A DNA stretch of 39,256 nt from a virus. Both the position numbers and the translations under genes were made by a program. This document shows positions 97 to 36,055 of this stretch, piece after piece. Where the stretch lies: positions 1-39,256 of the IMG/VR virus record IMGVR_UViG_3300037247_000424. One strand, given 5' to 3'. The notes beneath the pieces were generated by a model that was not told where the DNA came from, searched no databases, and saw nothing but the letters and a program-made list of their open reading frames with translations. Each line of letters starts with the position of its first letter. Position 1 is the stretch's first letter.

Positions 97-99
97 AGT

Positions 100-3304: not shown

Positions 3305-3759
3305 ACACTTTCCCAATTTGTAGTATCATACGCCTTGTATACAACATTGCTCCCGCTTGCAAGGGTGGTCAGGGTATCAACGCCAGCTCCTAAATCATCA
3401 CCACTCGCAGGATATATTCTCAATGTATTGGCTCCGTTATTAATCACAATCGCCGTCAGTCCTGCCTTTGCGGTTGGCAATGTAACTGTATCGTTTGCAT
3501 TGGCTACCGTAGAGATTTCATTCATTCTTGATATTAAAGGCTGTTGCCCCTGCGTCTGAGTGGTACTTGCTGTAATACCGGAAGTCACAGAATCAATGTC
3601 ATCATTTATATTTACGATATTAGCAATATCAGAATACATTACCCTGACTTCTTTGATTAATAATCTAAAATATTCAAGTAGTGGTTGATGATCTTTATTT
3701 TCACTAGATAAAATCAAGTCACTGTCAAGTGGCAATATTTTTTGACTTGAAAGTTTCAT
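3301..3759 (-). CDS. hypothetical virion-associated protein
   Basis: 152 residues. The N-terminal third is helical and charged; the rest is Thr/Ala/Gly-rich beta-type sequence (TVANANDTVTLPTAKAGLTAIVINNGANTLRIYP-like pattern) as seen in small phage tail or fibre-associated proteins. Its start overlaps the stop of the 597-residue tail protein (ATGA), and its stop overlaps the start of the PurD-like gene, so the three are translationally coupled. No family recognised. Confidence 0.55.
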   Translation of the reverse strand: MKLSSQKILPLDSDLILSSENKDHQPLLEYFRLLIKEVRVMYSDIANIVNINDDIDSVTSGITASTTQTQGQQPLISRMNEISTVANANDTVTLPTAKAGLTAIVINNGANTLRIYPASGDDLGAGVDTLTTLASGSNVVYKAYDTTNWESV

Positions 3760-5549
3760 ACTCCAAATTTTCCTTTTACCGGTAAAAAATATGGAACTAT
3801 AGCGTGTATTTTAGGCGTCTGGCCTAAAGCATTCTTGCTTAATTGTATTTGGTGAAACTCCCCGATAGCCCCTGAATAAACCCTCTTCCACACCTTGTCA
3901 TCATCACCATCAAAAATCAAGGTATCTGTCTGGTAGGCAACAGTATCTTGATTTATAAAAAGAGCAACGTCCAGGGTAACGGCAGGATCTTTATCCACAA
4001 GAAAATCAACCCAACCCAACCTTGCTTTAAACCCCTTTTTAATATAAGGGTTAAACCTTTTTGTTTTTACTGAGAACTCAAAACTAGAACCGTTATCAGC
4101 ACTTGTATCATTCAACTTGTAAATCACACCTGAAATAGATCCGGCAATAACCAAAGGGAACTGTGCGCCTGATGTATTCGCATCCCATATCTGTTCCGTT
4201 TCGTCCCATGTAGCCTCTCCAAAGGTATCCCATGTAAGGTCATTGTCAACTACCCATTTGCCAAAAACATGAAACCCTATACTATTTGTTGACCATGTCT
4301 TGTTAATTCGATTGTATACAATCATCCTGTCATTTGTATTGGTAGTACCAAAATCAGGATAACTGGTAAATTGCAAATCTAATTCTTCAACAAAAACAGC
4401 ATAAATAAGATCAAATACCTCTTGATCGAATTCCTGCACTATATCGGGAATATCAATATTTTTTGTTTTTACGCTAAGACCGTCAGTGGATATAATCTTT
4501 GACGATGCCACAGCAGTAATCTCTTCCGAATAAGACAAAACAGAATGTGTAGAAAACGAACCGCTAAAGTTATCTATCCTCTCCCATCTGAAAGGCAAAC
4601 TCACATCTTGCGTATGCTTAAATATCCATGTAGAACGATCAAAAAATATAATAAGATCATCTCCAAGAAATCCCCCGCCCTTTATAAACTCTGAAGTCGG
4701 AGCATCGACAAAACCATCATTAGTGAAATCAATCCCGCCTGCCGTAGCCCACCTCGCTCTCTGTGCATGTAAAGTTCCGCCCTCTGTGGACCTGAAGCAC
4801 ACAAGATGATCTTTGTATGCAAATACCAGTAAGCAGGTAAAGGCAATTGCGCCTGCGCCTATATCAACTGAAGGCTTGGAAAGACTCGATCCATCATAAG
4901 AATCTAATACGTCATTATTATTGGTAAAATATAAAACACCTGCCCAATTAGCCCAGTGAAAATGCTGCGAAGACGTACCTGAGAATCTGTCAGCCCCTAC
5001 TATGTCAGTAAACAAAGAATTAGCTACAACCCATTTACCAACCCTGCGCGTATCAAAAACAAGAAGAGTAGACCCCCCTGCCGAAGATTTATGGTTTGCA
5101 ATGCCCATAATAGCATTACCCGGCAAAAAAACATAATCTACTGTTATCGGGCCTGTTGGCCCTGCGTCCCATGTCAGACTATAAACGCCTGTTGCTACAT
5201 CCAAAGTACCAGTGCCGTCACCTGTAAATCCACCTGCGCCATCGTATCTCATTACTTGTGGGGTTCCCGTTGAATCAGTAAAGATAGCAGCAAACACCGA
5301 ATTTCTAACCGGAAAATTCGACAAAGTGCCTTGCACCGGATTGGTAGTATCTGCAACTGCTTCATTAAGTACACTATGAGACATTTCTCCAAACTGACTA
5401 TACCCAAGTCGCTTCTGAAGAACACCTTTTCCTATAAACCCATTAGATATCGACTCAAATGCATCTTCGGATATAAGCCAAGGCTGCTTACTATCAACCC
5501 TGCCTTTTCTGAAATCCATAATAGGAAACGCTTGATAATTAACTACCAT
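3756..5549 (-). CDS. large tail / head-completion protein
   Basis: 597 residues, beta-rich throughout with repeated aromatic and Asp/Gly/Thr turns (WDTFGEATWDETEQIWD), suggesting a beta-propeller or beta-sandwich structure. It begins MVVNYQAFPIMDFRKGRVDSKQPW and soon reads KGVLQKRLGYSQF, a start style common in phage tail proteins sitting below the portal and adaptor (P22 gp10-like tail stabilisation proteins are one analogue). Position after the adaptor and fibre genes supports a tail-tube or nozzle role. The fold assignment is inferred; no enzymatic motif seen. Confidence 0.5.
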   Translation of the reverse strand: MVVNYQAFPIMDFRKGRVDSKQPWLISEDAFESISNGFIGKGVLQKRLGYSQFGEMSHSVLNEAVADTTNPVQGTLSNFPVRNSVFAAIFTDSTGTPQVMRYDGAGGFTGDGTGTLDVATGVYSLTWDAGPTGPITVDYVFLPGNAIMGIANHKSSAGGSTLLVFDTRRVGKWVVANSLFTDIVGADRFSGTSSQHFHWANWAGVLYFTNNNDVLDSYDGSSLSKPSVDIGAGAIAFTCLLVFAYKDHLVCFRSTEGGTLHAQRARWATAGGIDFTNDGFVDAPTSEFIKGGGFLGDDLIIFFDRSTWIFKHTQDVSLPFRWERIDNFSGSFSTHSVLSYSEEITAVASSKIISTDGLSVKTKNIDIPDIVQEFDQEVFDLIYAVFVEELDLQFTSYPDFGTTNTNDRMIVYNRINKTWSTNSIGFHVFGKWVVDNDLTWDTFGEATWDETEQIWDANTSGAQFPLVIAGSISGVIYKLNDTSADNGSSFEFSVKTKRFNPYIKKGFKARLGWVDFLVDKDPAVTLDVALFINQDTVAYQTDTLIFDGDDDKVWKRVYSGAIGEFHQIQLSKNALGQTPKIHAIVPYFLPVKGKFGV

Positions 5550-5575
5550 AACACCCCTTAATTCAGTTTTTTGCC

Positions 5576-6682
5576 CTATGCAACCTTCCAGAATTCAGCA
5601 ACAGTATAAATTTCATTTTCAGGATTAGTAGCAAGATCAGCTGCTATACCAAGCCCATCTGTGTTTCGTGTTGTAGTACATTGATGTTCTATTTGAAAAT
5701 CCTTTTGTGCTGCGATAGTAAACCGGCCTCTTATAGTTGATGTAGTTATTAAATTGCTTGCACCTAGATTCCTTGCGGTTGAACCTATTCTTACAGTTAC
5801 ACCATCTGATGTATTTTTTAAACGTGCCTGATGATTATTTACTCTATTTGCAGGACAAGTAATTAAACAATCATAAGTACCAGCATCTAGTGTTATTACA
5901 CTTGAAGCAACAGAAACGTGATTCCCTGTATCTTGATCTTCTGTTACTGTTCGCTTTCGCCAGGCATCTTTTGTAAATGTACCACCATCCGTACCAGCGG
6001 CTTTAGAATCATGTAACCTGATATAAGGAATATTTGTCGGGATATCTATTAACTCACCGTTGGCATCATCGCTATGGTCGTGATTGGCCTCTTCAAACGT
6101 CATTACGGGTTTTGTTGAATGCGCAGACAGTATATGGAAGTTACTGCCATCACATACGATCTGTTTTACATCATCGGAGGACAAGAGCGTGATAGTCGTA
6201 GACCCGTCTATTGTCTCAGAACCATCGCCATCTACGGTCACAGTATCGCTGCCATTATTCTTTATGTAGATATGCCATCCATCACCTAACGTAGCAGCCG
6301 CAGTTAGCGTGATTGTGGTCGTATTCGTAACAAGAATACATTTACCGAAATCAGCAAGGACGGCAGTATAAGCACCGGTCTTTGCCAGCGTAACCACCTC
6401 GGTTTCAAGTCTTATTATCCTCCCGCTACTTGCCAGCCTTGCCTTTAACACATTACCGTCATTGTAAACACCTATAACACTTGCGGGAGTAGTTTGATCG
6501 CCAGCTTGGTCTTGAAGCTCTACTACAGTATGCTCCCCCGCATCAGTATTCTCATTGCCGGGGAAATTATGATTCCTACTAAGAGCATCTTCCAACGCCG
6601 TATTATTATCCCTGATCTCTTCATCACTTAATCTGATCTTCTGCGTTCCCGCAGGATTTGTTTTATCCCAATTAGTTGCCAT
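5576..6682 (-). CDS. putative tail fibre / spike-head protein
   Basis: 368 residues. An N-terminal helical anchor (MATNWDKTNPAGTQKIRLSDEEIRDNNTALEDALSRNH region, about 1-40) is followed by short beta repeats (TLAKTGAYTAVLADFGK, TITLTAAATLGDGWHIYIKNNGSDTVTVDG) and a C-terminal domain of about 150 residues (HVSVASSVITLDAGTYDC to AEFWKV) with the beta-strand rhythm of C1q/TNF-like fibre heads. This design fits a short trimeric fibre or appendage that contacts the host surface. It lies between adaptor and tail genes. The receptor cannot be predicted. Confidence 0.55.
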   Translation of the reverse strand: MATNWDKTNPAGTQKIRLSDEEIRDNNTALEDALSRNHNFPGNENTDAGEHTVVELQDQAGDQTTPASVIGVYNDGNVLKARLASSGRIIRLETEVVTLAKTGAYTAVLADFGKCILVTNTTTITLTAAATLGDGWHIYIKNNGSDTVTVDGDGSETIDGSTTITLLSSDDVKQIVCDGSNFHILSAHSTKPVMTFEEANHDHSDDANGELIDIPTNIPYIRLHDSKAAGTDGGTFTKDAWRKRTVTEDQDTGNHVSVASSVITLDAGTYDCLITCPANRVNNHQARLKNTSDGVTVRIGSTARNLGASNLITTSTIRGRFTIAAQKDFQIEHQCTTTRNTDGLGIAADLATNPENEIYTVAEFWKVA

Positions 6683-11282: not shown

Positions 11283-12188
11283 TTAATAATTTACGTGAAT
11301 AGAATCTAACACCTTACCCACCCCTAAATCCTTAATACAAAATCTATGTAATTTTGGGTGCGTTTGTTTCATGGTTTGAAATTTATTCTTATTAAATAAA
11401 TCTGATTTTTCCATGTGAACACCAAAGGCACAGAAGGCGCAGCCAGTGTTTTTATATCCCATGTCATATATTGAAGATATTTCCAAACTTTCTTTTTTGA
11501 TATATTCCCATATATCTTCTTCTGTCCAGAACGACAAAGGCCTTGACATTGGCCTTTTACTGTCAAAAGCATTGCAACCGTTTCTTACATACCTTTGGTT
11601 TCGCAAATGACTGTTTTGTGTCATTGTTCCGTCATAACCCTTTTGACCAGACTCTTTTTCGTATCTTATAAAAGGTTCTTTTTTTAATACATCACAACAC
11701 TTATGAGATATTTTAAACGGTTGATACTCACCTCGCTTAATTAAATATTGCCACTTGTTCGGTATCTTACCAGATTTATATGGATTGTCATCGCCATGTA
11801 ATCTTTTATGTAATAACTTTGCAGACTTAGTTGTTCTTGCCTCGCTTATCTTTTGGCTTACCTCTTTAGAAATAATTGGATATCCATATTTATCAATAAC
11901 CTCATTAAACTTCATCTTTGGCTTGATAACGACGACATTATCAGTAGCCTTTGCAAACCTTCTTACTTCAGGATATTCTAACCCCGTATCGCAGAACACT
12001 GAGACGACCTTAGGAAATAATTTACGGATCATATGTAACAAAACAGTGCTATCCTTGCCGCCTGAGAACGATATATATATTTTCCCATAATGATATCTAT
12101 ACCACTCAATAATTCTAAGACTACTCATCGCCACCTTTAATTCAAGGGGATATGCTTGTCTTGTTTTTAGCAGTTTAGCTTTATCCAT
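11283..12188 (-). CDS. PAPS-reductase-family PP-loop protein
   Basis: 301 residues with the PP-loop SGGKDS at residues 42-47 in the context KIYISFSGGKDSTVLLH, followed by VVSVFCDTGLEYPE, the signature of the phosphoadenosine phosphosulfate reductase / DndC-like ATP-pyrophosphatase superfamily. A CAFCAFGVH cluster near the C-terminus may bind metal or iron-sulfur. Phage members of this family are common, and their substrate is generally unknown; sulfur transfer to DNA or tRNA has been proposed for relatives. It is a non-structural gene in the virion operon, with a good CGGAGGATTAG ribosome site. Confidence 0.8.
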   Translation of the reverse strand: MDKAKLLKTRQAYPLELKVAMSSLRIIEWYRYHYGKIYISFSGGKDSTVLLHMIRKLFPKVVSVFCDTGLEYPEVRRFAKATDNVVVIKPKMKFNEVIDKYGYPIISKEVSQKISEARTTKSAKLLHKRLHGDDNPYKSGKIPNKWQYLIKRGEYQPFKISHKCCDVLKKEPFIRYEKESGQKGYDGTMTQNSHLRNQRYVRNGCNAFDSKRPMSRPLSFWTEEDIWEYIKKESLEISSIYDMGYKNTGCAFCAFGVHMEKSDLFNKNKFQTMKQTHPKLHRFCIKDLGVGKVLDSIHVNY

Positions 12189-12562: not shown

Positions 12563-14476
12563 TCACCTCTGCGTAACTAATTGTTTAGGTTCGGAATTAA
12601 CTATCTCATCTATATCTTTTGCAACCGCCACGGCAGTTGTGAGTTTATCGTTTTCAATCTCTGATGCAGCCTTGATACCTAGTATCTTATTCAAATCAGC
12701 TTTAGAACTATTTACTTCCGCAGCCGTCATGTCTTTTACAGCCTTTGCATTTGTAGATTTGATTGCTGCCTGATTTACCTGATTTTGAATCTGTTGCGAC
12801 TGCTTTGCCGCCTCTGCCTGTCCCTGTACTATCTTTGCCAATTCATCCTTATTCTCAAGATTAGAAGACTGTATTATTGCAGCATCAGGTATATTTATTC
12901 CCGCACGCTTCATGCCAATCAACTGCATGTGATTCATTTGTTTCTGAGAATCAGTCAAGACGCCTTCTGTAACCTCTAAATCGTACAATGCAAGGTCAGG
13001 ATCAAAGAATCGGGGAGAAGGCTGCCTGTTGGTTATCTTGAATATCTTTGCCGCATCCCAATTATTCCTGATGATAGACATGGAATTTCGCCCCAACAAC
13101 TCCTTGGAAATGCCATAATTATCAAATAAGTCCTGAAGCGTGGTAAGTGCCTGCCCTGTTCTTATTTTAGCAAGTATCCCCGCAACTTCAACATCATCTT
13201 TATCTGCAAGCCCTAAAAGTTCGTTATTCGCACCCGATATCTCGATCAGGTCATTGTCCATCGTCTTCTGCATCTCAAGATTGCCGGGTGGTATATCAGG
13301 CGGTACAATCTTTTTCAGTCGCTCCTCTATGCTTCTTCCCGATTGCTGCTTCAGCCAGATAACACCTCCCTGCCCCGTTTGATACAAAGACTCTTTATTT
13401 ACAACCGCTTTTTCCTCTGCTATATACCCTGTGTTAAGCTGCGAATCCAATATGTCCATATTCTTACTACGCCTCTTATTTATCTCTCTTTGAGGATCAA
13501 TAATATCCCTGATAATACCCTGTAGCTTCTTATCCAATTCAATAAACTCAGAATCGAAATATCCCATCACAGGCACAAATCTGTAATCTTTTGTTCCAAG
13601 CGGATCAGGGCCATGATACACTTCTTCGTCTTCGAGGAATATAGTCACCTCAACATCTCTCTCAAATCGCTTTATAATCTCAAGGAACGGAAACTGACGT
13701 TTAACCTCTCTTGCATCTTTGTCTTTTCCGGTAAATTTAAACATCCGGCCATTAGTAGTATCAAAGAACACTGTTATTGGCTTAGAAACCCTAACCCAAT
13801 GCTCGTCATACCTAAGTAAATCCTGATGTAAAAGGTTTTCATTAAAGTTTGACGTTATGTATTTATTATCCTGTGCAGGGCGTGTTTCAGGCTTCAACTT
13901 ATCTATCTGACCTGCAAAAAACGGTAAAATAGACTTTGCAGCACTCCTTGTTATCCATTCCCGTCTTAATATTTCAGGGCAATCACTCAAATCCCTTCTC
14001 GTAAATGACGGATGCAACAAAAACCGGTTATGTGGTATTCTCGTGTATTTAAGTTCACCATTTAAAGGATCAGTACTGAAATCAAGCCAAGGCTCTACCA
14101 GGTTAAGCCCTGTCTTTAGCGTGCCTTGCTCAAACGCCTCTGACATAACATTGTAGCCCCTGCTATGTCTCATAACGTATTGCAAGGTCTGGCTCCATAT
14201 AGAGGCGTCCTGAGTATCAGAATTCTCATTGGGATCAACTTTATAACTTAAGCGGTTTTTGCGCTGATAGCCACTAATAATCTTAATGACTCTCTTAATC
14301 TTATTAAATACAAAGGCATTTCGTCGCTTGTTCTTGAGATATCCCTTTTCGCTTGAACTCCACTGATCGCCGAGAGAGAACCGCATGTCATTATCGGCCT
14401 GTTTAATCCACTTATCCCAGATAACAATAAAGTTGTTATACGTTTCATTGTATTTATCTATTCTGCGTTCTGCCAT
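12563..14476 (-). CDS. portal protein, P22-like
   Basis: 637 residues. The N-terminal third shows the P22-like portal pattern: DKWIKQADNDMRFSLGDQWSSSEK, NKIKRVIKIISGYQRKNR, and EQGTLKTGLNLVEPWLDF, followed by RIPHNRFLLHPSFTRRDLSD. The middle includes a wing-like VPVMGYFDSEF and a stem helix region (DPQREINKRRSKNMDIL), and the C-terminus is a long Gln/Ala-rich helix (QGQAEAAKQSQQIQNQVNQAAIK), like the P22 barrel. The portal forms the dodecameric packaging channel. Position next to terminase and before the scaffold fits. Confidence 0.85.
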   Translation of the reverse strand: MAERRIDKYNETYNNFIVIWDKWIKQADNDMRFSLGDQWSSSEKGYLKNKRRNAFVFNKIKRVIKIISGYQRKNRLSYKVDPNENSDTQDASIWSQTLQYVMRHSRGYNVMSEAFEQGTLKTGLNLVEPWLDFSTDPLNGELKYTRIPHNRFLLHPSFTRRDLSDCPEILRREWITRSAAKSILPFFAGQIDKLKPETRPAQDNKYITSNFNENLLHQDLLRYDEHWVRVSKPITVFFDTTNGRMFKFTGKDKDAREVKRQFPFLEIIKRFERDVEVTIFLEDEEVYHGPDPLGTKDYRFVPVMGYFDSEFIELDKKLQGIIRDIIDPQREINKRRSKNMDILDSQLNTGYIAEEKAVVNKESLYQTGQGGVIWLKQQSGRSIEERLKKIVPPDIPPGNLEMQKTMDNDLIEISGANNELLGLADKDDVEVAGILAKIRTGQALTTLQDLFDNYGISKELLGRNSMSIIRNNWDAAKIFKITNRQPSPRFFDPDLALYDLEVTEGVLTDSQKQMNHMQLIGMKRAGINIPDAAIIQSSNLENKDELAKIVQGQAEAAKQSQQIQNQVNQAAIKSTNAKAVKDMTAAEVNSSKADLNKILGIKAASEIENDKLTTAVAVAKDIDEIVNSEPKQLVTQR

Positions 14477-14484
14477 AATGGATA

Positions 14485-15003
14485 TTATACAGATTCATTA
14501 AGTTTGCTTGCCATTTCCTTACGCTTGGCATCAATTACGTCAAGCTGGCCCTGCTTCTTTTTAATTTCATCACATAGAGACTCGCAATGTTGTTCGTGAT
14601 CCTTATCACGACTAATCCTGTCGTTATTAAGTGCTTGTTCAAACGCATTAAACTCTGATTCAAGCTTTAACCTTCTTTTGTCAATATTTGTCCTGATCAA
14701 CTTATCAAGACCTTCAACCCTTGCCTGCTTCTCCAGAATATTACTATTAATCGCTGCAAGATACACAGTTCGATCATCTTTCTCCTGCAATAACTCGGAA
14801 TTAACGACTCTAAGCCCATCGTTATCAGAAAGAAGATCATCTCGCAGCCGTACCGCTTCTTTTATCCCGGCATCAAGGCGACTCAATTTAACAACCATAT
14901 TGTTAAGCATTTCCGCATTCTTTTGAAGTTTCAGATTCTTTGCGGAAAAAGACAACATCAGGTCCCAATCAAAATCTTGCAATACATTTTTATTGTCAGG
15001 CAT
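14485..15003 (-). CDS. coiled-coil protein between terminase and portal
   Basis: 172 residues, nearly all helical with Leu/Asn/Lys/Glu heptads (LQKNAEMLNNMVVKLSRLDAGIKEAVRLRDDLL and KKKQGQLDVIDAKRKEMASKL). A long coiled coil is likely. No known family; an assembly or internal virion role is inferred from location. The ATG overlaps the TAA of the preceding gene by one base (TAATG). Confidence 0.55.
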   Translation of the reverse strand: MPDNKNVLQDFDWDLMLSFSAKNLKLQKNAEMLNNMVVKLSRLDAGIKEAVRLRDDLLSDNDGLRVVNSELLQEKDDRTVYLAAINSNILEKQARVEGLDKLIRTNIDKRRLKLESEFNAFEQALNNDRISRDKDHEQHCESLCDEIKKKQGQLDVIDAKRKEMASKLNESV

Positions 15004-15374
15004 TATGATCTCCCATAAAGTAGTAAGCGGACATCTATATCAGTGGAACCACCTCCACCGGTAAGAATAGGTTTATATGCCAGGGGGTGATCCAGGACTT
15101 GTCTGTGAGAAAGCCCTAGCCCCGTTAAAGCTGTTTCTGTGATATCTAACAGAACAAGAAAATCAGTATCCGTAGGGTTATTGCTGCCATGCAATGCTAT
15201 AGTACCTCCATTAAGAGTACCGCCAACACTAACGATACCGGCATTCTGAGCGGGCATGATAATCCTCGCACAAGTATCACCCTGCGTTATCGTTTTCCAT
15301 TCCACAAGGAATGCCTGTTGTGTTCCCCACCCTCTTTTATCATAAGTTGTAACCGTTGGTGTAATTACTCCCAT
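15003..15374 (-). CDS. small beta-rich virion protein (decoration-like)
   Basis: 123 residues, beta-rich with a KRGWGTQQAFLVEWKTITQGDTCARIIMP start pattern, GTLNGGTIALHGSNNP turns and a glycine run (GGGG) before the last strand. Small proteins of this style next to terminase and portal genes are often head decoration or fibre-associated; that role is only an inference here. Confidence 0.5.
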   Translation of the reverse strand: MGVITPTVTTYDKRGWGTQQAFLVEWKTITQGDTCARIIMPAQNAGIVSVGGTLNGGTIALHGSNNPTDTDFLVLLDITETALTGLGLSHRQVLDHPLAYKPILTGGGGSTDIDVRLLLYGRS

Positions 15375-15383
15375 AATATACTC

Positions 15384-15605
15384 CTAAATAATATTTACAT
15401 GCACAATTATATTTTTTTCAAAAGGCGTTAATTTTTTTTGAACTGGATCTAAAGTCCACCAATGTTTCGGTTTCATTCCAAAAACTCTAATACGTATAAA
15501 CTCCCATGTGGGACTATACCATCTAAATTCACTGTGATTATCTCTAAATAATTCATAACGTAAAACTATCCACAAATTAAACCAGAAAGCTGATTTTTTT
15601 ATCAT
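15384..15605 (-). CDS. small aromatic-rich hypothetical protein
   Basis: 73 residues, with ten Trp/Tyr residues (FWFNLWIVLRYELF; RWYSPTWEFIRIRVF). It begins directly after the terminase stop with GGAGCA upstream as ribosome site. No clear membrane helix and no family recognised. Confidence 0.5.
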   Translation of the reverse strand: MIKKSAFWFNLWIVLRYELFRDNHSEFRWYSPTWEFIRIRVFGMKPKHWWTLDPVQKKLTPFEKNIIVHVNII

Positions 15606-16937
15606 TTACATTGCTCCCTTAGAAGCGTATTGAGATTCCAAGTCCTGTGCCTCCTGTGCTGACATACTGGCAGTCGCAAGGTCGCCGTGTATCTTCATCG
15701 CTACCGCCGCAGTCTCAAAGGCATCGGCTCCGTGTATCGCCCAATTCTTTAACGGATAATTGGCATGTACTTTGTATTTAAAATTATATACCTTCTGGAA
15801 GTCATATAACGCCTTTATCCCGTCCTTACACTTCTTCTTATCAAATCTTACCAATGGTAATAATGCCCGTACGCAATCAATCCCATCCTGTTTTATTTTA
15901 ACTTTTGGAATCTTTGTGAAATTAATGCCAAGGTTCCGTGCTGTTTCTATTCTTTTAGCTGCCTGTTCCGCGCTCCACTCTCTCACTTCTATATCATGGG
16001 GAGCATAATGTGCAATATAATTATATCCCTCGTCAATCTCTTTACGTCTACAGATATTTGCATAATGATCTATGCCTACATTACTCATTTCATAATAGTC
16101 TATAGCATGTACCCAATTACCTATCTGCTGCAGCCACCATATAGCATTGGCATCATTTACCCCGATATCCCATGCAGTAAATACCCCATAAGACTTATCG
16201 TGGGGAACTTCGCCTATTCTACCATCCACAGACGCCTGAGCCATCAACTGTGCATAATAAGAACCTTCAAGGCCGAACTCGAAATTGCAGTAAAATTCCT
16301 GCTGTATCATCTCCACGCTCATGCCATCCTGCCGTTCATTCTCTATCTCTTGAAGCGGTATAGCCCGGGTATCATCTACCGTAAGCACTTCAGAAAACCA
16401 CCGGTCAGACAATCTTGCTGTCTGTAGCAAGTCATGCAGGTGGTTCTTGCCTCTGGGGGTTCCGTTAAACCCCGCCCATCCACCATTCTCTGCCAGTATA
16501 GGACGTATAAAGTCCCATACTCTGGGGTCTTGCTGCGCATACTCAGAAAACATGCAGCCTATTGGATTAACACCCACAACATCAAGCCTGTCAGTACCAA
16601 GGATCTGGAATGTAGATCCCGTACCAAACGTAAGCTTCATTTCGTGTTCGTTCTTCTTTGCAATCATATTGGCAGGAAAATGCTCTAAAAACTTCATGCC
16701 ATCCTTATCCCTGCCGTCCCATAATATCTTCCTGCCAAGCGCCAGGGTCGGAAAGTAATAAAAATAAGCCCCAAGCCTCTGAGGAATCTTGGACGCCATA
16801 ATATTTATAAAAGTCTTGTCCTTGCCGCCCCGTCTGTGAACTACCCATAGAAACCTCTTTATACCCTGTTCTACAGCATTAAACACAGGCACCTGATAGT
16901 CCCTGGGAACAAACTTATGTGGTAATGTTATCGCCAT
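15606..16937 (-). CDS. terL: terminase large subunit
   Basis: 443 residues, an ATP-driven DNA-packaging motor with nuclease. Seen: PRDYQ adenine motif (11-15), Walker A HRRGGKDKT (34-42), a Walker-B-like segment ending CMFSEY near 130-135 with the catalytic Glu, a coupling NGTPRGKNH, and an RNase-H-type nuclease half with AWDIGVNDANAIWWL, HAPHDIEVREW and NWAIHGADAFET carrying the expected acidic residues. Length is normal. It is the first gene after a terminator hairpin, so it may have its own promoter or depend on readthrough from terS. Confidence 0.93.
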   Translation of the reverse strand: MAITLPHKFVPRDYQVPVFNAVEQGIKRFLWVVHRRGGKDKTFINIMASKIPQRLGAYFYYFPTLALGRKILWDGRDKDGMKFLEHFPANMIAKKNEHEMKLTFGTGSTFQILGTDRLDVVGVNPIGCMFSEYAQQDPRVWDFIRPILAENGGWAGFNGTPRGKNHLHDLLQTARLSDRWFSEVLTVDDTRAIPLQEIENERQDGMSVEMIQQEFYCNFEFGLEGSYYAQLMAQASVDGRIGEVPHDKSYGVFTAWDIGVNDANAIWWLQQIGNWVHAIDYYEMSNVGIDHYANICRRKEIDEGYNYIAHYAPHDIEVREWSAEQAAKRIETARNLGINFTKIPKVKIKQDGIDCVRALLPLVRFDKKKCKDGIKALYDFQKVYNFKYKVHANYPLKNWAIHGADAFETAAVAMKIHGDLATASMSAQEAQDLESQYASKGAM

Positions 16938-16945
16938 AATTTACA

Positions 16946-17010
16946 GCAATAAAAAAGGATAGCAATGCGAGGGGTGCAGCCCTGCACGGCTATCCTTATA
17001 CTTTTATTGC
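16946..17010 (-). terminator. rho-independent terminator hairpin before terL
   Basis: On the minus strand a GGATAGC / GCTATCC stem encloses a GTGCA-GGGC-TGCAC hairpin and is followed by TTTTTT. Outer GCAATAAAA and TTTTATTGC pair as well. The architecture copies that of the hairpin at 10550-10619: same seven-base outer stem style, an internal hairpin with a tetraloop ending GC, then a T tract. It would limit transcription from the terS side into terL. Confidence 0.7.
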
Positions 17011-17022
17011 TTTATATTCTGC

Positions 17023-17460
17023 TTATCTCCCCATAAAAACAAACGTCTGATCTTTTCCTTGTCTGCATATCCTTATGTAAAACTCAGTCAAGGCTTTATG
17101 ACTATCAAAAATCATAAACGGTTCATCAACCCATATAGTTTTAAAATCACCACTTTTGCCAAGCAACCACTCCGGCTTATTCAAATCCCCCATCGTTATA
17201 ACATCGCAAGGCATATTTGCAAACAGTGAAGATTTGAGCATTTGACTTGAAGTAACAATTAAGTCACTCTTTCCTGCATTCTGTTTTATATATTCTGTTT
17301 TCCCCGTCCTCCTACCAATATCACATCGGACAGTACAAAGTTCTATAGCATACATGACGGGATCACAACCATCTAACCCATTCTTGAGTTTTATTCTATT
17401 CGCCTTATTCAAAGAAATAAGACCATCTATTAGTTTGTGAAATTCCTTATATCGTTCCAT
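17023..17460 (-). CDS. small P-loop NTPase-like protein
   Basis: 145 residues. GRRTGKT (49-55) resembles the short Walker A of terminases and helicases, and FKTIWVDEP (106-114) resembles Walker B with a DE pair; SDLIVTSSQMLKSSLF lies between, as a strand-helix unit. The chain ends at VFMGR, immediately after what would be the next core strand, so only a minimal ATPase core is present. It sits between terS and terL. It could be an accessory packaging ATPase or a remnant of a larger enzyme; no nuclease motif is visible. Confidence 0.55.
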   Translation of the reverse strand: MERYKEFHKLIDGLISLNKANRIKLKNGLDGCDPVMYAIELCTVRCDIGRRTGKTEYIKQNAGKSDLIVTSSQMLKSSLFANMPCDVITMGDLNKPEWLLGKSGDFKTIWVDEPFMIFDSHKALTEFYIRICRQGKDQTFVFMGR

Positions 17461-17463
17461 AAT

Positions 17464-17844
17464 TCAACGATCTATAGACACTCCATTAATCTTAATATCC
17501 TTCAGCTTATCGCCAGCAGCCTTTCCTAACTTAGAAGCATTGGTAATGTTATCGCCATTATATTTTAAAGATTCCCCGCAAAGGGGGCAATAGTCAAACT
17601 CTTTTTCTATGTAAGATTTATAATCTTCGGTACTGTCTGCATAACATAACCACCATTCATCAACTCCCTCTCCAATGCCAATTATATGATTACATTTTTC
17701 CTGTGTCACTTTATCGCTTTTACCCATTTCATCAAAAGGCCTGCTTTTACTCAAATCAACCCTCGGTATTTTAATTTTATTCGGAGCGCAACATATATCA
17801 CATTTAGAATCATAATACTGATGCCTTGAACATATTCCACTCAC
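17464..17844 (-). CDS. zinc-ribbon-type hypothetical protein
   Basis: 126 residues from GTG, with AGGGAGAAGCT as ribosome site. Cys pairs occur at the N-terminus (CSRHQYYDSKCDICC) and in the middle (DEWWLCYADS; FDYCPLCGESL), so one or two zinc sites are likely. The C-terminal 40 residues are helical and basic. It lies two genes from terL; function unknown. Confidence 0.5.
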   Translation of the reverse strand: MSGICSRHQYYDSKCDICCAPNKIKIPRVDLSKSRPFDEMGKSDKVTQEKCNHIIGIGEGVDEWWLCYADSTEDYKSYIEKEFDYCPLCGESLKYNGDNITNASKLGKAAGDKLKDIKINGVSIDR

Positions 17845-17866
17845 AGCTTCTCCCTATCATAAGTTT

Positions 17867-17952
17867 TTAGGCATAGTCCGTTTGTAGCACTTACGGCCAT
17901 AGCTTCAACTGTAATAGTATAATCCATACTAGACTACCGTGACTATGCCTAA
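17867..17952. repeat. long imperfect hairpin between terS and next gene
   Basis: Perfect 12-base arms TTAGGCATAGTC (17867-17878) and GACTATGCCTAA (17941-17952) enclose 62 bases that contain smaller hairpins, such as AGTAT/ATACT. There is no T tract on either side, so it is not a simple terminator. It could be an RNA processing or regulatory structure in the late transcript. The 153-base gap holds nothing else I can see. Confidence 0.55.
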
Positions 17953-17997
17953 TGCCATTTTAATTAGTAGGCAAATGACTAAATCCCTAACTATCAA

Positions 17998-18585
17998 TTA
18001 CCCTTTATCTTCCAGCCGGTTAATAACCGCAGCCTTTACGCTCTTAATTGCGCTTGCGCTGTCACCATTCTTCTTGCCATCACCAAACTGATTTATTATA
18101 AACGTAGTCTCAACATTACTAATGTCCTTAGATACATCCAACTTACCATACTTTTCCTTATTTCTTATCGCACACATCCATCGACGGGTCTCTATCCGCA
18201 ACTTGTCCCTTTGCACATTAGCATTGTTAGGCCGACTTACAGTCACACCCTTACTATTAACATCATCATATACATCACCCTCAGAATTATCCGCTATCTC
18301 CTTACACTCCGCCGATATCACATCAGCACCATCCTTGTAAGCAATCTTATACTGCTCCGCAAACTCCTTCTTGTAATAAGGACTCTTCTCGTTCTTCCAT
18401 GCACATAATGTAACCGATGTAATACCAACCTCATTACATATCTCCACCTGCGTCTTACCCATGCCTACCAGATAAATCAAATGCTCACCCATATCATCAG
18501 TAAACTTGCCCCTGTCCTCACGGAAGACAACAATACCCTTTTTGCTTACAATATAAGCGCCATTAGTATCTGTATCTGTTTTCAT
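17998..18585 (-). CDS. terS: terminase small subunit
   Basis: About 195 residues from the ATG at 18585; an upstream TTG would add eight residues but is less likely. It has an N-terminal helix-turn-helix (LVGMGKTQVEICNEVGITSVTLCAWK) that recognises packaging DNA, a middle helical region (KEFAEQYKIAYKDGADVISAECKEIAD), and RDKLRIETRRWMCAIRNKEKYGKLD, a strong small-terminase pattern. It is the first gene of the minus-strand virion operon, next to the control region. Confidence 0.8.
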   Translation of the reverse strand: MKTDTDTNGAYIVSKKGIVVFREDRGKFTDDMGEHLIYLVGMGKTQVEICNEVGITSVTLCAWKNEKSPYYKKEFAEQYKIAYKDGADVISAECKEIADNSEGDVYDDVNSKGVTVSRPNNANVQRDKLRIETRRWMCAIRNKEKYGKLDVSKDISNVETTFIINQFGDGKKNGDSASAIKSVKAAVINRLEDKG

Positions 18586-18768
18586 TGTTATATAAAAAGC
18601 TCTTACCAAAACATACTATCAGGAGTCTGAGGGTTCTATGAAAATATTTGAACATTACTATATAGGGATTCGGATATTTACCCCCCGGCCTTAACTACCA
18701 CAACTAAAACACTTACGATCTAAACGTCCGATAATCAGTTATTATGTTATGTTGAATTCCAGTATCAA

Positions 18769-18801
18769 TTGACATATATCTAACTATACAGTATATAGTT
18801 A
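18769..18801 (+). promoter_or_regulatory. plus-strand promoter overlapped by a perfect inverted repeat
   Basis: TTGACA (18769-18774), a 17-base spacer and TATATA (18792-18797) form a good sigma70-type promoter. An inverted repeat TAACTATA-CAGTA-TATAGTTA (18781-18801) covers the spacer and -10 element, as expected for a repressor operator. It would drive the plus genes from 19497 onward. The regulator is not encoded in this window. Confidence 0.55.
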
Positions 18802-18811
18802 CAGCAATAAT

Positions 18812-18826
18812 AAGTCATGATGACTT
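18812..18826. promoter_or_regulatory. 15-base inverted repeat, possible operator
   Basis: AAGTCAT-G-ATGACTT is a perfect 7+1+7 palindrome just downstream of the promoter at 18769, about 25 bases from its centre. It differs in sequence from the first inverted repeat, so a second regulator or another half of the control region is possible. Confidence 0.4.
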
Positions 18827-18839
18827 TAGTTATTACGAG

Positions 18840-18848
18840 TTATCCACA
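18840..18848 (+). promoter_or_regulatory. consensus DnaA box
   Basis: TTATCCACA is a perfect match to the bacterial DnaA box, within AT-rich DNA upstream of the plus genes. A single box is weak evidence for an origin but fits host-DnaA-dependent initiation or regulation. Confidence 0.45.
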
Positions 18849-19027
18849 ATGAATACAGGCTTAAATGTAATCATTATTAGGTAACATTCAATCTATGCAC
18901 GCAAGAAACATAAGAGTGGGTAGATGAGAGTACCTACTATCACCACACATCCTGATCAATCACAATCATATCATATTAGACTTACGTTGAATAGTCTATC
19001 ATTTATGACATACTGTATATGATCGGT

Positions 19028-30263: not shown

Positions 30264-30391
30264 CAATGCCAATAAATATAGCACTAACATTAATAATCTT
30301 ATTCATATACGTAACAATGGCGACATTCGCATATGGCCTGATGCATTGGGTCAGGCTGGAATTTAAGAAGCGGGGCAGTGGCGGAATGTAG
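30260..30391 (+). CDS. membrane microprotein ending inside a tRNA gene
   Basis: 43 residues, starting MTMPINIALTLIILFIYVTM: one membrane helix at about 5-27. The last six codons and the TAG stop lie inside the tRNA gene beginning at 30372, so translation and tRNA processing would conflict on one transcript. ATGA overlap with the previous gene. Confidence 0.5.
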   Translation: MTMPINIALTLIILFIYVTMATFAYGLMHWVRLEFKKRGSGGM

Positions 30392-30468
30392 ACGCTAACA
30401 AAATGAGAGCCAGCACTTTTAGGGTGTTATGCGATATGGCTCATGCAGGTTCGAATCCTGCCTGCCCC
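30372..30468 (+). tRNA. class-II-like tRNA gene (Leu-like), insert near the anticodon arm
   Basis: GGGGCAG/CTGCCCC acceptor, TG at 8-9, a Leu-type D arm GCG-GAATGTAGA-CGC, and a canonical T arm GCAGG-TTCGAAT-CCTGC. A perfect arm AGCAC-TTTTAGG-GTGTT would place UUA (reading UAA) in the anticodon. Alternatively TAACA/TGTTA pair around TTTAGGG, giving UAG for Leu codon CUA if about 17 bases are removed. The extra GAGCC can pair with GGCTC in the variable region. CCA is not encoded. Anticodon unresolved. Confidence 0.55.
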
Positions 30469-30495
30469 CTTATTTTAACTTAATTGATTGAAGGT
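30466..30495 (+). repeat. 30-base direct repeat, copy 1 (gene leader)
   Basis: From CCCCTTATTTTAACTTAATT through the AGGT ribosome site; repeated with one difference at 30713-30742. Each copy ends in the Shine-Dalgarno of the next gene. It begins in the 3' end of the tRNA. Confidence 0.7.
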
Positions 30496-32524: not shown

Positions 32525-32965
32525 ATGCCATATTCGGGAGCTAAAGATGGAAAGCATTATTGGCTTACGCCAAAGAAATTGATGGACGAATTACAAGAAG
32601 AATTTGGATTTACATTTGATCCTTGTCCCTATCCAAAACCAGATGACTTTGATGGCCTAGAGGCTGAATGGGGTGAGTCAAACTATGTAAATCCTCCATT
32701 TGGAGTTGTGTTGCATAAAGGGAAAAAGAAAGGGGCTACCGCATGGGTACGGAAGGCAATCAAAGAATATGAAAAAGGGAAAAAGGTTGTATTGGTATAC
32801 CCTATAGACAAATGGGTATTAATGTTAATAAAAGCAGGCGCAGAGATTAGAAACCTTTACGATGTGAAATGGTGTTCAACTGAAGACGGCCTTCCGGGGA
32901 AAGGAACAGGACGGCATATAGCTTGTTTCATTTTAGACCCCAAGAAGATTAATTCAAAAGGATAA
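32525..32965 (+). CDS. phage N6-adenine DNA methyltransferase (Dam type)
   Basis: 146 residues. HYWLTPKKLMDELQEEFGFTFDPCPYP, then YVNPPFG (NPPF at 56-59) and VVLVYPIDKWV plus GRHIACFIL match the phage DNA_N-6-adenine methyltransferase family. Small size is normal for it. It probably methylates adenines in phage DNA to resist restriction; the target sequence is unknown. Confidence 0.85.
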   Translation: MPYSGAKDGKHYWLTPKKLMDELQEEFGFTFDPCPYPKPDDFDGLEAEWGESNYVNPPFGVVLHKGKKKGATAWVRKAIKEYEKGKKVVLVYPIDKWVLMLIKAGAEIRNLYDVKWCSTEDGLPGKGTGRHIACFILDPKKINSKG

Positions 32966-33257: not shown

Positions 33258-33446
33258 ATGTACAGAATAAATAAACAAACGCAAACGTTACAAGCTTTTA
33301 TTGATGCAGTTAAAGATGGGAAAACTGCAATAATGGCAGGTATGGAATATGTTGTGTTAAGTCGCAATTATTATGAGAAGCTTGTTAAAAGTAAAACAAA
33401 AGACATGGAAGAAACCAGCAAGGACAGCAATGGCGGTTGGGTGTAG
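33258..33446 (+). CDS. small hypothetical protein ending in an attC half-site
   Basis: 62 residues (MYRINKQTQTLQAFIDAVKDG start), with a strong GGGGGGAATT leader. Its last residues, SNGGWV, are encoded by the left part of the first attC-like half-site, suggesting its original 3' end was replaced by cassette DNA. Function unknown. Confidence 0.5.
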   Translation: MYRINKQTQTLQAFIDAVKDGKTAIMAGMEYVVLSRNYYEKLVKSKTKDMEETSKDSNGGWV

Positions 33447-33459
33447 TGGGTTGTTATAA
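33429..33459 (+). repeat. attC-like half-site a (start of cassette array)
   Basis: TGGCGGTTGGGTG followed by GTTATAA (33453-33459). It matches the right halves of attC e; no left half is present upstream. It marks the left edge of the first cassette, whose right R'' is TTATAAC, its exact complement. Confidence 0.6.
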
Positions 33460-33481
33460 ATCTTTATAGGAGGAGATAAGA

Positions 33482-33700
33482 ATGCTGTTAAATGAAATAA
33501 AAACTTATGAGGAATTAAATGATTATTTATTAGCAAAGATAGATATTGCAGATGGTAAAACTTCCAAAGTAAATCCCACATTTACAAAAAAACAAATGTG
33601 GGATCATTTCATGGGGCAATGTATGACAGGCAAAGACAAAGAAATATCAATACGCACAAAAGACATTCTTATTAAAAATATAAAAAAAGACTTTAGTTAA
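33482..33700 (+). CDS. cassette 1 hypothetical protein
   Basis: 72 residues (MLLNEIKTYEELNDYLLAKI start), helical with a Lys-rich end. AGGAGGAGATAAG gives a firm start 22 bases after the left cassette edge. KKQMWDHFMGQCMTGKDKE is the most distinctive stretch. Followed by attC b. Function unknown, as for most integron cassette genes. Confidence 0.6.
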   Translation: MLLNEIKTYEELNDYLLAKIDIADGKTSKVNPTFTKKQMWDHFMGQCMTGKDKEISIRTKDILIKNIKKDFS

Positions 33701-33706
33701 GAAGAT

Positions 33707-33838
33707 TTATAACAGGTATGAATCAGCCGCCAGCAAGGAGAAGGGCATGGGCACTGAAAGCGTTGGTGATGTATGCCGTAATACGTGATTAGGATAAACC
33801 GCATATCTTTGCTGGTTGGCTGTATGAGTTTGTTAGAT
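33707..33838 (+). repeat. attC site b
   Basis: R'' TTATAAC (33707-33713), R' GTTAGAT (33832-33838). L''-side CAGCCGCCAGC pairs imperfectly with L'-side GCTGGTTGGCTG. 132 bases, in the upper range of known attC lengths. Confidence 0.7.
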
Positions 33839-33856
33839 GTAGAGGTCATTTATAAT

Positions 33857-34066
33857 ATGAATAATATGGAATACATACGGACAGCTTATAATGTGCCAGC
33901 AAAACGTGGTATGCGTGTTGAGTATCAACCTGAACACAAGAAAGCATGGCAAGGCAAAATTATTTATGCTGAAAAGGGATATTTACGCATTCGAAGAGAT
34001 GGCGATACGAAAACATATCCAGCACCATTTCATCCAACATGGAATTTAAAATATTTAAGCATCTAA
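33857..34066 (+). CDS. cassette 2 hypothetical protein
   Basis: 69 residues from ATG at 33857 (GAGGT upstream), with a beta-barrel-like pattern: GMRVEYQPEHKKAWQGKIIYAEKGYLRIRRDG. An upstream extension in frame would run through attC b and is unlikely. Its TAA is part of the R'' box ATCTAAC. Confidence 0.6.
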   Translation: MNNMEYIRTAYNVPAKRGMRVEYQPEHKKAWQGKIIYAEKGYLRIRRDGDTKTYPAPFHPTWNLKYLSI

Positions 34067-34168
34067 CGCTTGAAGTCACTTGCTGGCCAGAGAAAGGAGA
34101 AATATGAAAGACAATAAAACTGAACAGAAATCGAATGGCGGCCAGTCAAGTGGAGCGAATTGTTATAA
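34061..34168 (+). repeat. attC site c
   Basis: R'' ATCTAAC and R' GTTATAA. The inner arms CACTTGCTGGCC and GGCCAGTCAAGTG pair with one extra base, like the extrahelical bases that direct strand choice in attC. It contains a ribosome site and the ATG of the next reading frame. Confidence 0.75.
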
Positions 34169-34388
34169 GTTTTTGTCCAAGCTGAAAATGAAAACTGCTG
34201 ACTACGATTACCTTATTAATGATTACATTCCACAGCAAGGCGAAAAGGATATGGAAATGTTTATTACATTGGGATTTTCAGATTACAATTATATATTATG
34301 GAAATTGTTTGATACGGGGCATATGAAAAAGAGTTTTATAGAACCCTTCAAAAAAAGAATAAATAAAGTATTTAGCATAAGCTTATAA
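34104..34388 (+). CDS. cassette 3 hypothetical protein, start inside attC c
   Basis: 94 residues from ATG at 34104, which has a good AAAGGAGAAAT site but lies in attC c; an alternative ATG at 34188 is inside the cassette proper but has no ribosome site. The first 20 residues (NKTEQKSNGGQSSGANC) are therefore encoded by the recombination site. The rest (YDYLINDYIPQQGEKDMEMF) is helical. Stop overlaps R''. Confidence 0.55.
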   Translation: MKDNKTEQKSNGGQSSGANCYKFLSKLKMKTADYDYLINDYIPQQGEKDMEMFITLGFSDYNYILWKLFDTGHMKKSFIEPFKKRINKVFSISL

Positions 34389-34463
34389 CGTCTGAGGTGA
34401 GCTACCGTACATGGCTGCCGAACAGTGAACGGCACCACGGTTGGCTCCAGTGAGTTGTTAGGC
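34383..34463 (+). repeat. attC site d
   Basis: R'' TTATAAC, R' GTTAGGC. Arms ACCGT/ACGGT with an internal GCCG/CGGC hairpin. Core very similar to sites f and h. 81 bases. Confidence 0.8.
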
Positions 34464-34482
34464 TTTTTGATTGGAGATAGAA

Positions 34483-34692
34483 ATGGATGAAAGAGAAAAG
34501 GATATTTTTGAAGAACAAGTTAGAGGGATGTATAAAGAAGATATTCCCCTTCCTCTTGTTTCGATTATGAGGGTGTGCATGGAGTCCAGTGTAAATAGAT
34601 TGGTGAGAAAGAGAATGATTGAAATTGCTGAAAATTTTGCCAAAACTGATGATAAAGATGCTGAAATTTTAACTTTACTGAAAGAAGCCTAA
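34483..34692 (+). CDS. cassette 4 hypothetical protein
   Basis: 69 residues from ATG at 34483 with TTGGAGATAGAA in front. Acidic, all-helical (MDEREKDIFEEQVRGMYKED; RMIEIAENFAKTDDKDAEIL). Its TAA is within the R'' box GCCTAAC. Function unknown. Confidence 0.6.
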   Translation: MDEREKDIFEEQVRGMYKEDIPLPLVSIMRVCMESSVNRLVRKRMIEIAENFAKTDDKDAEILTLLKEA

Positions 34693-34756
34693 CGCCTGAG
34701 GTCACCTACCGCCAATCAGCAATACAATGGCGGTTGGGTGGAGTGCTTTGTTAGAT
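34687..34756 (+). repeat. attC site e
   Basis: R'' GCCTAAC, R' GTTAGAT. A perfect ACCGCCA/TGGCGGT stem with CACC/GGTGG pairing outside. 70 bases, the most canonical site of the set. Confidence 0.85.
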
Positions 34757-34787
34757 TGCATATTTACAGAAAGGAGAACTATTAAAA

Positions 34788-34988
34788 ATGGATATGGCTT
34801 ATGTAGGAATAAAAGCTTGTGGATGTATAGTAGCTGCGACCGTAGACAACCCTCAACATAAAAGAGAAGTGGCAAAGGATATTGCCGGTTTTATAAGGCA
34901 AGGATTAAGCGTGGAAAGAATAACAGTGGAGAGAGTAAGAAAAGAATTAAAAAGATGTGAATGTGAAGATAGCAAAATAGCAATCTAA
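34788..34988 (+). CDS. cassette 5 hypothetical protein
   Basis: 66 residues (MDMAYVGIKACGCIVAATVD start). The sequence reads like a small alpha/beta protein, with VAKDIAGFIRQGLSVERITVERVRK in the middle and Cys residues at both ends (CGC; RCEC). AAAGGAG precedes ATG. TAA lies in the R'' box. Confidence 0.6.
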   Translation: MDMAYVGIKACGCIVAATVDNPQHKREVAKDIAGFIRQGLSVERITVERVRKELKRCECEDSKIAI

Positions 34989-35063
34989 CGCTTGAACTGA
35001 GCCACCGTGCTAGGCATACGAACAATGAATGGCACTACGGTTGGTTCCAGTGATTTGTTATAA
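34983..35063 (+). repeat. attC site f
   Basis: R'' ATCTAAC, R' GTTATAA, arms CCGT/ACGG with GAGCC and GGTTC outside. Core nearly the same as d and h. Confidence 0.8.
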
Positions 35064-35087
35064 ATCGTATTTCTTTAAGGAGAAAAC

Positions 35088-35279
35088 ATGCAAACAGAAA
35101 CACAAAAAATAACGATAACTATTGACAAGAAAGAAGCTTTGTCAATTTATAATGCTCTGTTGCCAAACATAAACCCGGGTTCGGGTTGTGATACCCCAGA
35201 AACCAAAGGGGCGTCTGACCTGAAAAGGTTGTTGCAAGGTAATTTCTTTAGTGACAAAAAAGGCATACACATGCTGTAG
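35088..35279 (+). CDS. cassette 6 hypothetical protein
   Basis: 63 residues (MQTETQKITITIDKKEALSI start) with a strand-helix pattern (ITIDKKEALSIYNALL). TTAAGGAGAAAAC is a strong ribosome site. Function unknown. Confidence 0.6.
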   Translation: MQTETQKITITIDKKEALSIYNALLPNINPGSGCDTPETKGASDLKRLLQGNFFSDKKGIHML

Positions 35280-35281
35280 CT

Positions 35282-35481
35282 TTATAACGTGGAGCTGAGC
35301 TGCTACGGACAGAAAGGATAAAATATGGGAAACAAAAAACCAACGATTGAAGAACTGGAAAAGATACTGAGTGGGCCAGAACGATCCATTAGAATTAATC
35401 CTGACGGATCGCTAGGTACAGCAGAAAAAGAACCTGAAAATAGCACAGACGCTAGTAGTCAGGTCGAGCGCATTGTTAGCA
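35282..35481 (+). repeat. attC-like site g, unusually long
   Basis: R'' TTATAAC (35282-35288) and R' GTTAGCA (35475-35481). The right arm (AGTCAGGTCGAGCGCATT) resembles that of site c. At 200 bases it is longer than typical attC and contains a ribosome site, start codon and about 50 codons of the next reading frame. Confidence 0.55.
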
Positions 35482-35693
35482 CTAAAACTGGCAAGCTAAT
35501 AGCCTTAGTTGACAAAAATACTGGCAATACTATGAATGGTGATATATGGAGGCTTGCAATGGAATGTAAAGAGCGCCTTGAAAGACAAGCACAAAGTATG
35601 CATATGGATATAAAACAGATAGAAGTTGACTTAAGAATATTAACAGACACAATTGCTCGCATAGAAAAGAGATGGGAATCTGAAGAGTGCTAA
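35325..35693 (+). CDS. cassette 7 hypothetical protein, start inside attC g
   Basis: 122 residues (MGNKKPTIEELEKILSGPER start), acidic front and a long helical rear (ECKERLERQAQSMHMDIKQIEVDLRILTDTIARIEKRW), probably coiled coil. AAAGGATAAAAT precedes ATG. About the first 50 residues lie left of the cassette boundary, so the gene may be a fusion made by cassette insertion. Confidence 0.55.
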   Translation: MGNKKPTIEELEKILSGPERSIRINPDGSLGTAEKEPENSTDASSQVERIVSTKTGKLIALVDKNTGNTMNGDIWRLAMECKERLERQAQSMHMDIKQIEVDLRILTDTIARIEKRWESEEC

Positions 35694-35768
35694 CGTTTGA
35701 AGTGAGCTACCGTGCTAGATGTACGAACAGCGAATGGCACTACGGTTCGCTCTAGTGATTTGTTATAA
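35688..35768 (+). repeat. attC site h
   Basis: R'' TGCTAAC, R' GTTATAA, GAGC-TACCGTGC and GGCACTACGGT-TCGCTC arms. R'' complements GTTAGCA at the left edge of the same cassette. Confidence 0.8.
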
Positions 35769-35787
35769 TTTTTACGGAGGAAATAAA

Positions 35788-36000
35788 ATGACTTTAAATC
35801 AAGAAGAAGAAGAAGAGGCAGCAACTAGAAATTATAATCTTGGAATATCTAGAGGATTAGATCAAGCGTCAAAAACCCTTATGAATGCTGCTGTAGGATT
35901 TTTTGAAAGAGGCAAGGATGATATAGCTAATATTTTAAGGGAACAAGCAAAAAGGTTTGAACTTGATTCGGCGAAAATACATCCTGGTATACCAAATTAA
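35788..36000 (+). CDS. cassette 8 hypothetical protein
   Basis: 70 residues from ATG at 35788 (ACGGAGGAAATAAA). Starts with a Glu run (QEEEEEAA), then helices (GISRGLDQASKTLMNAAVGF; DIANILREQAKRFEL). Last gene of the array and of the plus-strand set. Confidence 0.6.
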   Translation: MTLNQEEEEEAATRNYNLGISRGLDQASKTLMNAAVGFFERGKDDIANILREQAKRFELDSAKIHPGIPN

Positions 36001-36012
36001 ATAAGTAAAAGA

Positions 36013-36055
36013 TTATAACAATAGATATACGAAGTTCGTATTTGCAATAACAAGT
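36013..36055 (+). repeat. attC-like half-site i (end of array)
   Basis: TTATAAC complements the left R' of cassette 8, followed by an ATACGAA/TTCGTAT hairpin. No matching R' box follows, so the site is truncated where the minus-strand genes begin. Confidence 0.45.

Follow-up and report, generated by a model that had tools for sequence, protein, structure and literature searches.

The viral record IMGVR_UViG_3300037247_000424 is a linear sequence of 39,256 bp, which we analyzed over its full length and refer to below as the window. Between positions 33426 and 36048 it carries an array of integron-type gene cassettes that is very probably a true CALIN (cluster of attC sites lacking integron integrases) with inverted cassettes, where the attC site lies 5' of the gene and the mobile unit is an attC site together with the gene that follows it. 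Sites of the attC type are defined by RYYYAAC and GTTRRRY boxes around a foldable arm, and clusters of them without an integrase are called CALINs. This reading draws on the sequence and structure of the sites, their strand, the pairing of their boxes, the recurrence of the inversion in other phages, whether or not they have the integron integrase IntI, and the insertion of one unit at the attI site of a viral relative. A previous reading of the same DNA (the original prediction) had proposed an integron-type array in a phage, and both covariance-model matches and box pairing support that proposal. It missed the orientation of the attC sites relative to the genes, however.

The record encodes a portal protein (phrog_156), a major head protein (phrog_1357), and tail genes, and is therefore that of a tailed phage. 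The array lies at the 3' end of the rightward gene block of this phage and faces the leftward structural genes. Such a convergent junction of two gene blocks is also the position of the array in viral contig L166 and of the second array in L174. Gene calls were open reading frames backed by codon usage and, for some, also by protein families. Eight short reading frames, all on the plus strand and each preceded by a Shine-Dalgarno-like motif, are accompanied by seven complete attC sites within 2.1 kb, a left half-site (33426–33459), and a single box at the right end (36013). The predicted eight genes on one strand were all present; the number of complete sites is seven, not eight. The left half-site is joined to a phage gene (33258–33446), and its sequence (AGCAATGGCGGTTGGGTGTAGTGGGTTGTTATAA) is like the R' half of the site at 34687–34756. 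The features are as follows, with scores from the covariance model R1 described below:

33426–33459, minus strand: truncated attC site (left half) of cassette 1; canonical R'' side, box TTATAAC on the minus strand, other half missing
33482–33700, plus strand: cassette 1 gene, 72 aa; AGGAGG 8 nt before the ATG; no family (Pfam/PADLOC)
33707–33838, minus strand: attC site of cassette 2 (unit 33713–34066), boxes at 33707–33713 and 33832–33838; 31.1 bits, E = 3e-5
33857–34066, plus strand: cassette 2 gene, 69 aa; phrog_2730 (unknown function), E = 1.2e-15
34061–34168, minus strand: attC site of cassette 3 (unit 34067–34388); 39.6 bits, E = 3.5e-7
34104–34388, plus strand: cassette 3 gene, 94 aa from the ATG at 34104; Shine-Dalgarno motif AGGAG 4 nt before the ATG, both in the loop of its own attC site
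34383–34463, minus strand: attC site of cassette 4 (unit 34389–34692); 41.7 bits, E = 1.1e-7
34483–34692, plus strand: cassette 4 gene, 69 aa; no family
34687–34756, minus strand: attC site of cassette 5 (unit 34693–34988); 44.6 bits, E = 2.6e-8
34788–34988, plus strand: cassette 5 gene, 66 aa; no family
34983–35063, minus strand: attC site of cassette 6 (unit 34989–35287); 34.6 bits, E = 4.9e-6
35088–35279, plus strand: cassette 6 gene, 63 aa; no family
35282–35481, minus strand: long attC site (200 nt) of cassette 7 (unit 35288–35693); 20.2 bits, E = 0.009
35325–35693, plus strand: cassette 7 gene, 122 aa; Shine-Dalgarno motif and ATG (35325) inside the loop of its own attC site
35688–35768, minus strand: attC site of cassette 8 (unit 35694–36018); 34.6 bits, E = 4.8e-6
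35788–36000, plus strand: cassette 8 gene, 70 aa; no family
36013–36048, minus strand: last box and possible attI relic; TTATAAC on the plus strand, then AATAGAT and the inverted repeat ATACGAA-G-TTCGTAT, in the place expected of a site on the integrase side
R' boxes: 33453, 33832, 34162, 34457, 34750, 35057, 35475, 35762
R'' boxes: 33707, 34061, 34383, 34687, 34983, 35282, 35688, 36013

To evaluate the sites, we used a covariance model (R1) trained on 19 attC sites from class 1 integrons on plasmids and from chromosomal integrons in Planctomycetota genomes. The training sites were taken in the canonical strand relative to intI and, for plasmids, to named resistance genes, and the set held no phage sequence. 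Covariation in the arms of this set was far above shuffled and slid controls. With filters off, the seven best R1 matches in the window were the seven complete sites (20.2–44.6 bits, E from 2.6e-8 to 9e-3), and the next match had an E-value of 0.76. The first and last bases of all seven matches fall on box boundaries. The sites in the window are attC sites. The original prediction was to be abandoned if an attC covariance model scored no site, and seven were scored. An Rfam scan gave no attC match, and our first pattern for the R'' half had no match in viral contigs. Chains built from box pairs alone were weak in several Planctomycetota loci and no better than reversed controls, so the covariance model was used instead.

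The pairing of the boxes provides a second line of evidence. All 16 boxes named in the original prediction were found where it had placed them, and, as it had claimed, the left and right boxes of a cassette are exact reverse complements of each other in 8/8 cases. The complementarity extends to 12, 8, 8, 9, 10, 8, 9, and 8 bases for cassettes 1–8, respectively. Across sites, where the R'' box of one cassette meets the R' box of the next, 0/7 match. Only 48 of 40,320 random box pairings match in all eight cassettes (p = 0.0012). The GTTA..TAAC pattern alone is not enriched in the window (28 found vs. 22 expected), so the evidence consists of the pairing plus the structure of the sites. Hairpins standing between genes on one strand might also be expected of transcription terminators or mRNA processing sites that merely resemble attC. 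This explanation is hardly credible given that the pairing follows the cassette and not the site, and that an attC-specific model matches with exact box boundaries on one strand.

All seven R1 matches are on the minus strand while the eight genes are on the plus strand, so every site in the window departs from the usual layout, in which attC lies at the 3' end of the gene on the same strand. No plus-strand R1 match was found at the seven sites up to E = 5. A position matrix likewise scored the opposite strand 22–29 bits above the gene strand at every site: six of the seven reached 11–18 bits vs. -8 to -12 bits, and the 132-nt site was poor on both strands (-2 vs. -26 bits). Read in the canonical direction, a window site (TAACAACTCACTGGAGCCAACCG...GCTCACCTCAGACGTTA) is close to one from Ca. 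Scalindua (TAACAAGTCAGTGGAGTTGACGCC...CACCTCACTTCAGTCGTTA). This known bacterial attC, itself canonically oriented, is similar to the window sites once they are reverse-complemented. As recombination occurs at the canonical R' box, an attC site and the gene after it make up the unit in the window. This accounts for the presence of the ribosome site and start codon of genes 3 and 7 inside an attC loop. Under a canonical reading these two genes would be chimeras of two cassettes, whereas under the inverted reading each belongs to a single cassette.

We then compared the orientation of cassettes among arrays using codon usage trained on each record. Strand calls from the longest open reading frame were unreliable in GC-rich contigs and were replaced by this method. 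In the window, 6/6 interior cassettes were called inverted. Viral arrays gave 42 inverted, 5 canonical, and 8 ambiguous calls, and bacterial arrays gave 6 inverted, 38 canonical, and 4 ambiguous calls (Fisher p = 7e-14, for cassettes that are not independent given the duplicate contigs L060/L061 and shared cassettes). L174 serves as a natural control, having two arrays on opposite strands that are each inverted relative to their own operon.

These counts bear on whether the phage simply captured an ordinary canonical array whole from a bacterial chromosomal integron and carries it as a passive passenger, like known phage CALINs. There is precedent for phage CALINs and for captured integron pieces (Qi et al., 2023, PMC9892861), and the array of Tetrasphaera phage TJE1 is canonical. 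Capture is nevertheless improbable here and mostly refuted by strand, since all seven sites are opposite to their genes. The 38:6 canonical majority in bacterial arrays makes a captured bacterial array with 6/6 inverted cassettes unlikely, and a phage with the same type of attC has its own IntI and phage-type cargo (Dam, PAPS reductase).

A search with the R' half of the window sites identified six further viral contigs and three contigs from genome collections. One of these contigs, L056, is of phage type and was binned with a Verrucomicrobia metagenome-assembled genome. In several of the contigs L050–L056, the attC loop holds the start codon of the next gene, and the reading frame stays open across the box, giving the peptide V[RG]SS[DE]LL (translation by eye). 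The attC of this type encodes a protein N-terminus. L050 and L056 have only an attC in common (97.6%), with different genes on both sides.

About 30 viral contigs were identified by an IntI alignment scan. One is a tailed phage with a tape measure gene (L109, G010; IMGVR_UViG_3300049489_000585), and its true IntI scores 412.7 bits against a cut-off of 265. Positions 13126–18914 of this contig hold the IntI gene and some ten inverted cassettes, two of whose genes encode DNA methyltransferases (Dam and N6/N4), and the array adjoins a separate phage tyrosine integrase. A second contig (L100, G005; IMGVR_UViG_3300049830_000248) encodes an IntI of 322 aa that scores 255.7 bits, just under the same cut-off. 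Its positions 1–5241 carry closely similar attC sites of the window type, with PAPS reductase and Dam as cassettes, and DnaB helicase and terminase-like genes are also present. The intI gene of L100 is directly followed by an exonuclease-like gene. The viral IntI sequences form two virus-only clades (support 100/100 and 100/99) with inverted arrays in each, and the L100 IntI attaches weakly to the second. An integrase-like gene annotated as xerD in Virus Rctr41k (KX853513, positions 4680–5678) also groups with IntI sequences. The single weak canonical attC match in Rctr41k, 3 kb from the integrase, was too little and was not used.

In both L109 and L100, the array is upstream of intI and the cassette genes point at its 5' end. 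The attC sites face intI in the usual way, and the genes alone are turned. The shared direction of intI and the cassette genes in L100 is what a "reverse integron" would show, as in Treponema denticola, where intI is flipped and the cassettes are ordinary. In Treponema, however, the cassettes follow downstream of intI and each gene has its attC on the 3' side (PMC7691350), whereas in the two viral contigs the array is upstream of intI, attC is usual relative to intI, and it is the gene itself that is inverted. A reverse integron is a very improbable account of the window. We rejected it because the attC sites lie 5' of the genes on the opposite strand, and the terminator-only reading because the boxes pair by cassette.

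Gain and sharing of whole units were found among these viral relatives. The flanks of L067 and L068 are 100% identical over 580 bp and 1,095 bp, and L068 has one extra unit of 520 bp. This unit consists of an attC site and then a gene of 151 aa, inserted between ..GGGCTAAC and the attI sequence AGGAATTCG.. directly upstream of intI. Relatives of the extra cassette are present in L109 and L061. L055 and L100 have a common unit (92%) of attC plus the following PAPS reductase gene; it starts at the box, and the upstream genes differ. In both pairs the moving unit is the one predicted by the inverted reading. According to the original prediction, a fixed gene order among related phages with no gain or loss of cassettes would speak against an integron. 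Insertion and sharing of units in viral relatives run counter to such fixity, but the contigs of the window phage's close relatives by portal and major head protein (84–85% for the latter) do not reach the array.

The search for intI in the rest of the genome, as the original prediction had suggested, found none in the record, and no tyrosine recombinase (PF00589) was detected there. As a cluster of more than the required two attC sites with no PF00589 match, the array is a CALIN. IntI with its extra domain, the mark of a complete integron, was found in relatives such as L100 and L109 and not in this record. Viral IntI clade B has, between the last box and intI, AAC followed by 8–9 bases and then an inverted repeat patterned as ATACCGAC-n4-GTCGGTAT, for example AAC-AGTTCAAGT-ATACCGAC-CTGA-GTTGGTAT in L082. 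In the window, a short perfect inverted repeat (ATACGAAGTTCGTAT, 36026–36042) adjoins the last box, within the possible attI relic. The layout shared with clade B gives a low-weight suggestion that the right end of the window is possibly such a relic.

Activity of the array may be sustained in trans by an integrase, or the array may be a recent fossil. An inverted array that came from an integrase since lost, and is now fixed and maintained only as operon genes, would be consistent with the lack of IntI in the record, the truncated left site, and the possible attI relic at the right end. We consider this unlikely, though deserving of some weight, as long decay is hard to reconcile with seven intact sites and with box pairs complementary over 8–12 bp, and related systems are active.

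Several points weigh against an active array of inverted cassettes. With no IntI in the record, activity in the window phage itself is at most presumptive, and the evidence for recombination comes from related viral arrays, as the close relatives do not cover this one. The 200-nt site scores low (20 bits). The L060/L061 duplicates and the sharing of cassettes make the counts non-independent. Of the five canonical viral calls, three come from L061, and the same DNA received a different call in L060. The bacterial controls represent one phylum (the Planctomycetota loci) and a few plasmids. Finally, the phage CALIN of TJE1 is canonical, so inversion is not universal in phages.

A mechanism can be proposed from these observations. 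An integron integrase, supplied by the host, by a related or co-resident phage, or by an intI that this phage has lost, would recombine the folded attC strand and swap cassettes with a phage cassette pool. Inversion would be selected because attC and attI fix the direction of insertion, and presumably a gene must be reversed to be read together with the phage operon and intI. Start signals beside or inside attC would then allow translation from the operon transcript. As cargo one would expect small accessory proteins, with possible roles in counter-defence or host takeover. On balance we favor the view that a class of integron has arisen within phages, that it has phage-specific integrases and draws on its own pool of inverted cassettes, whose attC serves as a 5' leader and sometimes an N-terminus, and that its swaps are readable from the operon. 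The window phage would be a member that uses an integrase in trans.

Pfam and PADLOC gave no match that explains the cargo proteins of the window, and the cassette 2 protein has one distant viral relative. Just before the array is a Dam-like methyltransferase gene (32525–32965, plus strand), with DNA 75% identical to Pelagibacter phage HTVC100P. A Dam-type gene is itself a cassette in L100 and L109. Most relatives of the Dam gene have no attC, so the adjacent gene is not generally linked to arrays. A PAPS reductase gene (11283–12188, minus strand) is located inside the structural block, and PAPS reductase is an attC cassette in L100 and L055. An Rfam tRNA match (30372–30469, plus strand; 98 bases, 34.3 bits) was not called by ARAGORN and is possibly an odd or decayed tRNA gene.

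CALINs in phages are already known, and some of their attC sites serve as IntI1 substrates (Qi et al., 2023, PMC9892861). Like the window, TJE1 lacks intI and carries attC sites with short cassettes, but it has three attC sites that are on the gene strand and follow the gene, whereas the window has eight cassettes with attC before the gene on the opposite strand. The sedentary chromosomal integrons of Ca. Scalindua and other Planctomycetota (L101, L156–L159) are alike in their R''/R' boxes, L arms, extra unpaired base, and attC sequence. They differ in having intI and in that 38 of the 44 cassettes called have the gene on the attC strand. The T. denticola system (PMC7691350) shares with L100 the common direction of intI and cassette genes, but there intI is turned and the cassettes are ordinary, while in the viral arrays the cassette genes are turned and the geometry of intI, attI, and attC is usual. 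Complete integrons, with IntI inside the phage genome, are also found in the temperate phages Vibrio Va_90-11-286_p16, Shewanella M16-3, and a P1 mosaic (PMC9892861), as in our viral relatives. The Vibrio and P1 cases were read as pieces of host or mobile integrons (PMC9892861); the viral IntIs described here, unlike these, fall in two virus-only clades and accompany inverted, phage-type cargo. We found no account of inverted phage cassettes in the open literature, preprints and subscription papers being outside the search. What is new is the location of attC on the strand opposite the genes, in the window and in most viral arrays tested.

Integrons have been studied as bacterial devices, with cassettes read from a promoter beside intI. 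Our results suggest that phages have a gene-swapping system of this kind that is their own. The inverted reading predicts that the recombining strand is the coding strand, that the unit is attC plus the following gene, and that a start codon can move with attC. In large virus collections, the strand of attC relative to the gene would also be a simple means of separating arrays of the phage type from those captured from bacteria. The array further points toward a pool of small phage genes as candidates for counter-defence tests. If a separate pool of reversed cassettes with its own integrases is confirmed, phage gene content would be subject to programmed reshuffling as well as to general mosaicism.

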